The notes under the pieces were generated by a model. That model saw only the letters and a list, made by a program, of their open reading frames with translations, made no database searches and was not told the origin of the DNA. 64,000 bases of DNA from the NCBI RefSeq assembly GCF_900142735.1, contig NZ_FRBY01000002.1:186001-250000 (forward strand), given 5' to 3'. Both the position numbers and the translations under genes were made by a program. Shown piece by piece: positions 47,530-50,297 of this stretch. Origin of the DNA: Flavobacterium saccharophilum (lineage in GTDB: Bacteria; Bacteroidota; Bacteroidia; Flavobacteriales; Flavobacteriaceae). Within the stretch, counting starts at the first letter, position 1. The number at the start of each line of letters is the position of its first letter.

Positions 47530-49599
47530 CTACTTCTCTATCTCTTTCAGCAAACGACTCAATTGAAACTGTTCATCGGGGGTCAAATTAGGCAAAATTC
47601 TTTCAAACGAAGCACGCATTTCTGAATTTTTTAATAAAAACCGAATTGTATCTCTTCCAAATTTTGAAAATTGCCACATATGATGCGTTGTGGCTCCAAC
47701 TAAATTACTCAAAACCTGATCGTTAATTATTTTAAACGCAATTAGCTTTTCAAGTGCATTCTGTCTTGTAGTGGCTTCATATTTTGCAGAAGAAAAAGAA
47801 ATCAGTTCAGCAATCAAAGTTTCTGGATTCTCTGCATAATTCGGAGTTGACAAAGCCAATGAGAGCCACATTGTACGCAGATTATAATCATTAAAACCAA
47901 TCCAGTTTTTAGATTTTTCCAGATATTCAGCACGATAATCCGGAAAATTTTTCCAAAGCCAGTACAATGCAATTTCCTGTGTTTGATAGGATTTATCATC
48001 AAGCAAGGTTTCATATTCAGCTCTAAAATCTTCTGGAATCTTACTCAAAGTTGTCGCAACATCCTGACGAATCTGAATATTATTGGTTTTTAAAGCAATT
48101 AATAAGAGTGCTTTTTTAGCCTCGTATTTTTCATTTTCCAATTGATCAACAATTGCCTGTTTTACAGAATAATATACCTCTGACTCTAATGTTTTCTTAA
48201 AGAAAGCTTCTTTTTCTAATAAAGGTGTTTTCTTCAATTTATCGACTTCTAATCGAACCTGAATTGCTTTGTTCTTACTTAATAAAGCATTGGCTGTTGC
48301 CGTATCAAAAACAGTCGATTCTAACCAGGTTTTCTGAAATTTATCTAAATCAAAATTGGAAACTTTTTTAATTTCGTCGAAGAAATCCTGAGTGTTTACA
48401 GTTTTATAAGCATACTTTTTTAAATAACTTTTTATGGCTTTTTTAAAAGCTTTATCTCCAATCGATTCATGTAAAACAAACAAAGCCCAGGCTCCTTTTT
48501 CATAAAAAGTAAGCGAACTTGCTTTAGCATTCAAAACCGGAATCGTATCCGTTCTGGAGGCAAATTTGATCTGTTGTGCCGTATCGTAAAATTTGGAGTA
48601 AAAATAATCTTCACCATAAATTTCTCTTTCTGCTAAAGCTGCATAATAAGTTGCAAAACCTTCCTGAAGCCAATGGTGTGTACTACTTTCGGCTGTAATT
48701 AAATCGCCAAACCAATGGTGCGCCAACTCATGCGCATCAACATTCGTATAATTTCGATCTTCAAAACCAATAGAATCTACTACATATCGCGTAGCAAAAA
48801 GTGTCGAAGTCGTATTTTCCATTCCAGCGTAAAGAAAATCGCGAACCGGAATCTCTCTGTAAATTTCCCATGGATATTTCACTCCAATTTCTATCTCCAA
48901 AAAATCAAAGATTCGTTTCGAATAACGATACGTTGGTTCAAAACGATTTACGTCTTTATTCTCCAGATAATATTCTAACGGAATTTTAGATTTTGCTGTC
49001 AATTCTTTTTTATCATATTTGCCAATGGCAAGCATTAATAAATAAGAGCTCATTGATTTTTCCATTTTGTATTGCCAGTGAACAGAATTTCCGTTTGAAG
49101 TTTTATCTTTTAAAATCCCATTTGAAACTACCTGATATCCTGCCTCATAATTGATTCCTAAATTAAAAATCACTTTTTCATTAACATCATCAAAACTCGG
49201 AAACCAATTACTGGTATATCTTCCCTGCCCTTGCGTCCAAATTTGCACTTCTGAATTCTCAATAGTAACATAATACAATGCCTGTTTTGGCTTAACGACG
49301 TATTCAAAAGTCAAATGATTTTTTCCTTTTTGAAAATTACTGATTATTTGCAATTCTTTACCTGTATTTACAGAATAAACCTCTTTACTGTCAATTTGGA
49401 CATTGGTAAATTCCATGTTTTTAGCATCAATCTTAATGGTGTCAATTGGTTTTAAAACTTCAAATTGATAATCAATCGAGCCGGAAACCAATTTTTCCTT
49501 TGCATTTAAAGACAATTGTCCTGAAACGGTTTTAAAATCGACAAACTTGGTTTGTTGTGCAAAAAGGAATGTGGTAAAAAATAGGAGGATGTATTTCAT
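47530..49599 (-). CDS. M1 family metallopeptidase
   Basis: The 689-residue peptidase has a short signal peptide ending FLFAQQ and a family GxMEN element (GMENTT, 259-264). The zinc site is H290-E-L-A-H294 with E313 nineteen residues on, as in M1 enzymes. It probably acts outside the cytoplasm, cutting N-terminal amino acids from peptides. A HEAT-like C-terminal part (about 460-689) completes the fold. Its ATG overlaps the RAYT stop by four bases (ATGA), suggesting translational coupling. Confidence 0.93.
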   Translation of the reverse strand: MKYILLFFTTFLFAQQTKFVDFKTVSGQLSLNAKEKLVSGSIDYQFEVLKPIDTIKIDAKNMEFTNVQIDSKEVYSVNTGKELQIISNFQKGKNHLTFEYVVKPKQALYYVTIENSEVQIWTQGQGRYTSNWFPSFDDVNEKVIFNLGINYEAGYQVVSNGILKDKTSNGNSVHWQYKMEKSMSSYLLMLAIGKYDKKELTAKSKIPLEYYLENKDVNRFEPTYRYSKRIFDFLEIEIGVKYPWEIYREIPVRDFLYAGMENTTSTLFATRYVVDSIGFEDRNYTNVDAHELAHHWFGDLITAESSTHHWLQEGFATYYAALAEREIYGEDYFYSKFYDTAQQIKFASRTDTIPVLNAKASSLTFYEKGAWALFVLHESIGDKAFKKAIKSYLKKYAYKTVNTQDFFDEIKKVSNFDLDKFQKTWLESTVFDTATANALLSKNKAIQVRLEVDKLKKTPLLEKEAFFKKTLESEVYYSVKQAIVDQLENEKYEAKKALLLIALKTNNIQIRQDVATTLSKIPEDFRAEYETLLDDKSYQTQEIALYWLWKNFPDYRAEYLEKSKNWIGFNDYNLRTMWLSLALSTPNYAENPETLIAELISFSSAKYEATTRQNALEKLIAFKIINDQVLSNLVGATTHHMWQFSKFGRDTIRFLLKNSEMRASFERILPNLTPDEQFQLSRLLKEIEK

Positions 49600-50297
49600 T
49601 GAAAATTAGAATTTATGGAATCTGTATCCCAAGATCGTGGATTGCTTTTTATATAATTATAAATCGTTTCAAATCTTTTGTAATTACGGACAATATGGTC
49701 GTGATAGTTGGTTTGCCATATTTTAGTAGAACCAGATTGATTTTTGTCATCACAAATCTTATTAATTTGTGTCGTTGTAACTGATTTGAATAACGCTACG
49801 AACGATGAAATTGAATTAGGTCTCCTTGAAAATTTAAATTCGGATTGATCAAGATTCATATTCTCGATCCAATTATCACGTAGAGGCGCACGGCAGTGCG
49901 TCTCGGCAACGTTTGGCCCAATCTTTGTCGACACACTGGACGTAGACGCACTGCTGTGCGTCTCTACGATATGCGTGTGTGGATCATTCACGTCTAAAAT
50001 ATCCGTTGTGGGTACAACATTATTTATATTTTGAATTTCAATTAAAAGATGAACATGATTTGGCATCACAATCCAATTATGAAAAAACCAATTTTTACGA
50101 ATTTTAATAGATTTCAAAAGCTCATTCTCTACAATTTGACCATTTTCATTTAAAATCATTTTCTCATTTTCAATCGAACCAAAAATGCATTCTCTATTTT
50201 TTGTAACTATTGTTATAAAATAAATTGCCTCACTTGAATAGTCCCAGTTCTTTAATCTTTTAGAGTCGATTTTATATTTATCTTGATATAATGTCAT
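49596..50297 (-). CDS. REP-associated tyrosine transposase (Y1/IS200-like, RAYT)
   Basis: The 233-residue protein has the Y1 transposase fold: histidine-hydrophobic-histidine motif H81-V-H83 in WIVMPNHVHLLIEI and a late catalytic Tyr, Y198, in WQTNYHDHIVRN. This is the RAYT type, which moves or controls REP palindromes. Between residues about 110-140 it has an extra segment that does not belong to the core: it is encoded by a pair of inverted REP-like palindromes (49879-49969) and stays in frame. No terminal repeats of an insertion sequence were seen around the gene. It overlaps the following M1 peptidase gene. Confidence 0.88.
   Translation of the reverse strand: MTLYQDKYKIDSKRLKNWDYSSEAIYFITIVTKNRECIFGSIENEKMILNENGQIVENELLKSIKIRKNWFFHNWIVMPNHVHLLIEIQNINNVVPTTDILDVNDPHTHIVETHSSASTSSVSTKIGPNVAETHCRAPLRDNWIENMNLDQSEFKFSRRPNSISSFVALFKSVTTTQINKICDDKNQSGSTKIWQTNYHDHIVRNYKRFETIYNYIKSNPRSWDTDSINSNFQ
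49879..49969. repeat. Inverted pair of REP-like palindromes inside the RAYT gene
   Basis: Element A at 49879-49906 has palindromic arms GAGGCGCAC and GTGCGTCTC around GGCA. Element B at 49942-49969 has arms AGACGCAC and GTGCGTCT around TGCT. The plus strand of A aligns with the minus strand of B over 28 bases with a few mismatches, so the pair is inverted and separated by 35 bases. The pair is GC-rich against the AT-rich background and is in frame, encoding VETHSSAS- and AETHCRAP-like segments. Confidence 0.85.

Follow-up and report, generated by a model that had tools for sequence, protein, structure and literature searches.

Why should the gene of a transposase carry, within its own coding sequence, the palindromes on which such an enzyme is expected to act? 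The question is raised by a RAYT (TnpA-REP Y1 transposase) gene in a stretch of 64,000 nucleotides from Flavobacterium saccharophilum, hereafter the window. A preliminary description had noted two inverted, REP-like palindromes in this gene and had offered two explanations for them, namely self-insertion of the element or a recognition site kept in the gene for self-regulation.

The REP pair and its dispersed family

The host gene (49596..50297, minus strand) encodes a protein of 233 amino acids and was assigned by PF01797, by NF047646 and by alignments. The PF01797 match (E 1.3e-8) lies over the gathering score, and NF047646, the NCBIfam equivalog for the REP-associated tyrosine transposase, matches in two stretches at 70.7 bits, which is under its 80-bit cut-off. 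With the HUH motif PNHVH at residues 79-83, WQ at 194-195 and YIKSNP at 215-220, the gene is of the RAYT type, as had been supposed. Its reading frame is open throughout, palindromes included, and the palindromes do lie in frame between the core motifs, in the linker that leads from the HUH motif to the C-terminal helix (residues about 93-161; 49815..50021, minus strand). This linker is variable, also in length, in a MAFFT alignment with orthologues. AlphaFold gives residues 93-161 a pLDDT below 50 with nearly no secondary structure and, in a model that is weak overall (mean pLDDT 49), places the linker between a strand (81-88) and a helix (163-185).

Both inverted palindromes are real. The first REP (49944..49967, minus strand) has its GTAG foot at the outer 5' end and the loop AGCA, and is read as VETHSSAS; in the GTAG orientation it is GTAGAGACGCACAGCAGTGCGTCT, at 49967-49944 of the minus strand. 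The second, inverted REP (49880..49903, plus strand; GTAGAGGCGCACGGCAGTGCGTCT in the GTAG orientation) has its foot at the other outer end and the loop GGCA, and the gene reads it as ETHCRAPLR. Each REP is 24 bases long, the tetranucleotide GTAG stands at both outer ends of 49880-49967, and the two 24-mers are separated by 40 bases (49904..49943, minus strand), not by the 35 first described. With inverted REPs, outward feet and a short spacer, the segment 49880-49967 in the linker is a REPIN, a term reportedly defined for an inverted REP pair by Bertels and Rainey in 2011. A search of the 64-kb window with GACGCACNGCNGTGCGTC, at up to 3 mismatches, returned 2 matches, both within the gene, where shuffled sequence led us to expect 0.01. 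The segment folds into one long hairpin in which the two REPs pair with each other (RNA, -49.5 kcal/mol, z -4.8; DNA, z -4.4).

The further copies that the preliminary description had envisaged exist: beyond the two in the gene, the genome holds 12 sites (17-base core pattern, up to 2 mismatches), which makes the palindrome a member of a dispersed REP family, and some of these copies form outward pairs of their own (for example, C6:627463-627522). Controls with the reversed pattern gave 0 here, as they did in the counts below for related genomes, loop types and genomes lacking a RAYT match. In 30 of the 31 related genomes there were 29-193 matches (up to 3 mismatches, strands counted separately, in-gene copies included), with 168 in the genome of L057, strands again counted apart. 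Dispersed pairs with outward feet no more than 150 bases apart, spaced similarly to the in-gene pair, numbered at least 21, at least 4 and at least 8 in three relatives among the matches listed; inward and same-strand neighbors, likewise among the listed matches, were 16 and 7 in G028, 1 and 1 in G020, and 0 and 0 in G025, the copies in G020 and G025 being mainly those with 0 or 1 mismatch.

Six genomes of the genus have no listed RAYT match at E 1e-6. Three of these (G088, G115 and G185) hold 0 REP matches, and the others hold 7 (G099), 11 (G173) and 20 (G205); in 14 genomes outside the genus, also without a RAYT match, there were no REP matches. In G099, G173 and G205 the REPs may thus outlast or precede a detected RAYT gene, two courses that this comparison does not separate. 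The window's own genome also has two more distant Y1 genes, L062 (G000:C5:960708-961115) and L067 (G000:C7:411947-412153), with palindromes beside and not inside the gene: TCTTTG..AACTTTGACAAAGA occurs on both sides of L062, and CCCGTGGTTTCAACCACGGG occurs on one side of L067.

Conservation within Flavobacterium and beyond

A contig scan yielded 32 loci. Flavobacterium orthologues make up 31 of them (L027-L057); L058, a fragment belonging to another group, was left out. The linker contains a REP in every one of the 31 orthologous loci and two or more in 28, which means that the segment is shared in the genus. A recent self-insertion in this strain can therefore be dropped, and "insertion" is the wrong word for the window genome, since the orthologues have the segment in common; the data favor the other explanation first offered, that of a site retained within the gene. 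At the protein level, "VETHSSAS ... ETHCCAPL" or close variants appear in most orthologue linkers and are lost in a few. The preliminary description had taken the presence of the segment in all homologues at the protein level to speak against its proposal. Within the genus it is indeed so present, but the conservation sits at the DNA level, and for this reason the interest of the locus is left intact.

The arrangement of the REPs differs between orthologues. L048 and L050 lack one member of the pair, and in L053 a double-foot REP stands alone; the pair is thus not essential. Tandem REP pairs are present in L040 (two) and in L054, L055 and L057 (three each). L057, from the metagenome-assembled genome Flavobacterium sp. 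UBA7680, has a nonsense codon after residue 50 and yet three linker pairs. In the window gene and its orthologues, the start-to-start spacing of the in-gene pairs is 75 in 18 of 35, the others ranging from 48 to 105.

The surroundings of the gene are highly uniform. A gene for an M1 peptidase (47530..49599, minus strand; PF01433, PF17900) starts at the RAYT stop codon, and a homologue of it adjoins and follows the RAYT gene in 31/31 orthologous loci, with a PF01902 gene on the other side in 30/31. The RAYT locus is syntenic and fixed across the orthologues, and the REP pair has been inherited with the gene by descent at a single locus. Outside the gene, no REPs were found within 3 kb in 30 of the 31 loci, nor elsewhere in the 64-kb window. 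The sole flanked locus, L050 (F. hungaricum), has a long REP array upstream of the RAYT gene (558-2800) with a spacing of about 224 bases.

A third REP, in another reading frame, occurs in L029 at about nucleotide 510 of the gene. At the corresponding place the window gene (residues about 183-191), L027 and L028 have a 9-codon insert that is unrecognizable as a REP. We considered these inserts as decayed third REPs, which might have served as an internal control, and rejected this use of them. They match L029 at 14, 14 and 11 of 27 positions (window, L027 and L028, respectively), and because this identity is low and L029 is not a sister of the insert carriers on the tree, such decay stays a guess.

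The conservation extends to silent sites. Over the codon columns with a conserved residue in the window gene and 30 orthologues (31 genes), silent variation was absent from 11 of the 12 scored REP columns and from 9 of the 101 columns that lie outside the linker (Fisher p 3e-9, with codons taken as independent). The frozen codons are mostly rare ones, the mean major-codon usage being 0.15 over the 14 scored linker columns versus 0.65 outside. Among 83 in-gene REPs, with 8 pairs each, 655 of 664 stem cells are paired (618 Watson-Crick and 37 G.T), and the four-base loop takes 8 forms, the encoded amino acids changing with it. The feet are in register at the 5' side only in 44 of the 83, at the 3' side only in 36, at both in 1 and at neither in 2; a 5'-foot REP is directly followed by a 3'-foot REP, that is, with the feet outward, in 27 of 32 genes, the window gene included.

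At stem position 3, an A/G variant places G opposite T in 32 of the 83 REPs and, in the REP orientation, never changes side; the gene translates it as a change from Thr to Ala in one orientation and from Ser to Pro in the other. Since the variant is fixed in the orientation of the REP and is translated differently in each, the unit of variation is the REP. Covariation is scarce among the in-gene REPs; double changes are few and the stems are mostly invariant, for which reason the case for maintenance rests on invariance. Conservation that is nearly letter for letter suggests that the hairpins themselves matter, as opposed to a chance insertion.

Linker palindromes extend well beyond the genus. 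In a Bacteroidota sample of 198 genomes, the window protein found matches in 82, and genes were taken among the matches listed (80 listed stretches together with the search loci). From 119 open reading frames there, 113 had the HUH motif and 102 were scored, the latter set leaving out L062 (deliberately), N-containing genes, genes without the C-terminal FK/YK motif, those with a linker below 8 codons and identical genes. Perfect linker stems of at least 9, 10 and 14 bp were present in 73, 64 and 43 of the 102 genes (among the matches listed), respectively, versus 7, 6 and 0 for windows of the same length elsewhere in the same genes; 222 neighboring open reading frames, with about 14 times the sequence (216,720 bases), gave 12, 5 and 2. 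When the genes were shuffled synonymously, the observed linker stem was unreached by all 30 shuffles in 63 of the 73 genes, and for 27 of the 102 one or more of the 30 shuffles produced a stem of 9 bp. No linker stem of 8 bp was found in 21 of the 102 sampled RAYT-like genes (among the matches listed).

The palindromes differ between lineages. The 73 linker stems represent 65 different core strings, which are not to be taken as 65 unrelated families, and within the window's own genome the corresponding linker of a diverged paralogue contains another palindrome, perfect over 30 bases. The feet of the 73 stems are GTRG in 60 (in two frames, 54 and 6) and CYAC alone in 2, and 11 stems have neither foot. 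Absent among them is the frame of the GTRG foot that would put a TAG stop in register.

What the in-gene REPs may do

We propose that the segment, a REPIN from the REP family of this RAYT, has long resided in the coding sequence and is kept as a nucleic acid recognized by the Y1 enzyme, not for its peptide, and we regard this as a probable, if by no means assured, reading of the sequence comparisons. Those comparisons comprise the identity with dispersed REPs, the outward GTAG feet, descent at one locus, the frozen silent sites and the same stem variant in both orientations; from them we infer the RAYT as the reader, at the level of DNA or RNA, and a benefit through feedback or a linked donor. 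In this scenario, the encoded enzyme would recognize the GTAG foot plus the hairpin as nucleic acid. Most likely, the RAYT would bind, and perhaps nick, this hairpin while the strand that bears it is single during replication or transcription, or would act on it in its own mRNA; such binding would exert negative feedback on the RAYT, and the in-gene REP would also serve as a cognate donor copy that stays linked to the gene. Y1 transposases of this kind are not known to bind RNA. In other groups, TnpA-REP recognizes the GTAG foot and hairpin of REPs in single-stranded form and cuts close by, at CT dinucleotides (PMC8266576), and self-recognition is for this reason the simplest reading. We thus read the pair as the RAYT's own recognition site in cis and possibly a means of self-regulation.

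The main rival to this proposal is concerted evolution, in which dispersed REPs repeatedly overwrite those in the gene, by RAYT-driven strand transfer or gene conversion, and leave them with a semblance of conservation that is of no use to the gene. Such conversion could freeze the silent sites too. With three loop types and exact counts, the majority loop in the gene is also the dispersed majority in 28 of 31 genomes; the exceptions, L034, L037 and L049, lean toward private in-gene variants. Over 30 scored genomes the observed share of agreement was reached by 0 of 5,000 shuffles, with kinship not corrected, and on the tree the agreement amounts to about 3 to 4 changes; an independent-pairs test had 3 pairs and no power. 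As independent evidence of co-evolution we have accordingly rejected the loop match, because related genomes are not independent and independent changes are few. Compared pairwise within single genes, the loops match in 74 of 92 cases, and the multiplied REP pairs fall in one clade (L040, L054, L055 and L057), whose genomes have the highest dispersed counts (130-193); a Spearman coefficient of 0.58 over the 31 genomes, again uncorrected for kinship, points the same way.

Against this stand genomes in which no copy was found away from the gene. The F. soyangense genome (L053/G027) has 2 matches, which are one palindrome on both strands, at the gene (18410); no other REP copy was found there within 3 mismatches, and the in-gene REP is nonetheless perfect. 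Among more distant genomes, searched with the exact patterns used, no copy of the gene's palindrome was found outside the gene in G168, and in G162 and G102 the sole other copies adjoin the gene. Reversed-pattern controls in distant genomes were not zero (G153, 3 and 3; G162, 1 and 1; G082 and G135, 1 each), and the real matches used there are perfect palindromes. Concerted evolution may act as well, but as the explanation of the in-gene REPs it seems to us unlikely, and a local role is favored because the in-gene REP persists where no dispersed copy was found.

A second alternative, which is the reading of Quentin et al. 2018, holds that the linker, being flexible and disordered, took up REPs that cause no damage there and have persisted. 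The variability and low predicted confidence of the linker agree with this, as does its capacity for other material: in L041 and L052 it is enlarged by tandem peptide repeats without REP character (IERSQ/IEHKQ and NNHE, respectively). So do the third REP of L029, in another frame and at a different place, and the strong palindromes elsewhere in some sampled genes, such as L122, where one lies near the start of the open frame. A neutral passenger, however, would be expected to drift, and here silent sites and stems are frozen amid differences in the remainder of the gene; the REPs retain a single in-register foot each, at the outer end; and the sampled palindromes of at least 9 bp favor the linker, with 73 of 102 genes against 7 of 102 elsewhere in the gene. 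We therefore think mere tolerance improbable.

The hairpin could instead act on the transcript for a neighbor, tuning the level or stability of an mRNA shared with the M1 peptidase, without the RAYT. The peptidase match starts no more than 60 bases from the RAYT stop in 29 of the 30 loci measured (L057 lying outside this count) and overlaps or abuts it in 10 of the 30, and the REP segment has the strong RNA fold given above. In the window, the RAYT stop and the peptidase start overlap by 4 bases (ATGA, 49596-49599), an overlap that suggests co-transcription. Linker palindromes also occur, however, in other Bacteroidota RAYT genes, found by protein match alone, and the GTAG feet would be unneeded for such a function, to which we give little credence. 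Least of all do we believe that VETHSSAS / ETHCCAPL is a conserved protein feature with the palindrome as its by-product, for although V111, E112 and H114 are invariant among 20 aligned proteins, peptide-level conservation is ruled out by the frozen silent positions and by the frames, with loop residues varying among Ser, Cys, Arg, Gly and Asn and the palindromes of other lineages encoding unrelated peptides in two frames.

A broader and distinctly more tentative hypothesis is that Bacteroidota RAYT genes carry their own operator. By binding to the linker REP the enzyme would limit its own synthesis, the REP would keep a matching donor linked to the gene, and the palindrome would change with the specificity of the enzyme; we hold this generalization to be possible, albeit doubtful. 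If it is correct, a donor would stay linked even as the gene relocates or its dispersed copies disappear, and each RAYT gene would state its own target in its own coding sequence. Were the in-gene REP indeed the site of its enzyme, the linker would reveal what a RAYT targets, and this would help to match orphan RAYTs with their repeats. The benefit of REPs to RAYTs, and the means by which bacteria restrain such nucleases, would then become testable through one short segment.

Comparison with known systems

The rayT gene of Escherichia coli (b0228) belongs to the canonical REPtron, in which a Y1 transposase is accompanied by a cognate repeat tagged with GTAG. We found no perfect stem above 6 bp within it; REP-like stems do occur in the 1.3 kb around the gene, all of them outside it, and we take these to be REPs. 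The window pair resembles a REPIN in its two inverted REPs with a short spacer and in the dispersal of the repeat through the genome, and differs from one in lying inside the RAYT open reading frame and in being inherited with that gene. HUH relaxases such as MobM act at their own recognition site near their own gene and thereby regulate themselves. They provide a precedent for self-regulation, yet MobM is a plasmid relaxase and not a RAYT, and its oriT lies outside the coding sequence. Within the RAYT, TnpA-REP and REPIN literature, covered by title or abstract opening and chiefly in open-access papers, self-regulation through in-gene REPs was not found.

Palindromic repeats in frame in protein genes are themselves familiar from intragenic REPs and from the Rickettsia palindromic elements (Di Nocera et al. 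2013, PMC3733652). The host genes of those repeats are varied, whereas here the host is a transposase of the type associated with the repeat.

The closest counterpart is subclass 2.4 of the TnpA-REP proteins (group 4 of Bertels), described by Quentin et al. 2018 (BMC Genomics 19:475, PMC6006769), in which in-frame REPs occur within the gene between the HuH and Y motifs. In-gene REPs as such are thus known, and the statement of the preliminary description that REPs normally lie between genes stands in general, this subclass with its in-gene REPs apart. In that paper, in-gene REPs are presented as a unique and predominant feature of subclass 2.4, with little suggested impact on the protein and probably tolerated, and the subclass itself is characterized by NH[IFV]H, WQ and YIxNNP and assigned to Bacteroidetes and Cyanobacteria (PMC6006769). 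The window RAYT resembles it in the HUH motif NH[IFV]H, WQ and the Y1 core, in the variable insertion between strand 3 and helix C (the AlphaFold placement being of low confidence), in the in-frame REPs between the HuH and Y motifs, and in the GTAG feet, which in the subclass (PMC6006769) include "double foot" forms, as also seen in L053. The window protein has YIKSNP where the subclass has YIxNNP, and a good part of the orthologues have YIKNNP. The window RAYT departs from the subclass in its flanks: the subclass also has flanking REPs, which are usual there without being described as universal (PMC6006769), and within 3 kb 30 of the 31 Flavobacterium loci have none. Thus, the window gene fits subclass 2.4 in most of the features tested.

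To this known arrangement our analysis adds the 30 of 31 loci without flanking REPs and the genomes in which copies were found only in or beside the gene. It also adds the in-register outward foot, one per REP, and evidence of maintenance as nucleic acid: where Quentin et al. 2018 (PMC6006769) propose that the protein is little affected, our silent-site result speaks for the segment being maintained as DNA.
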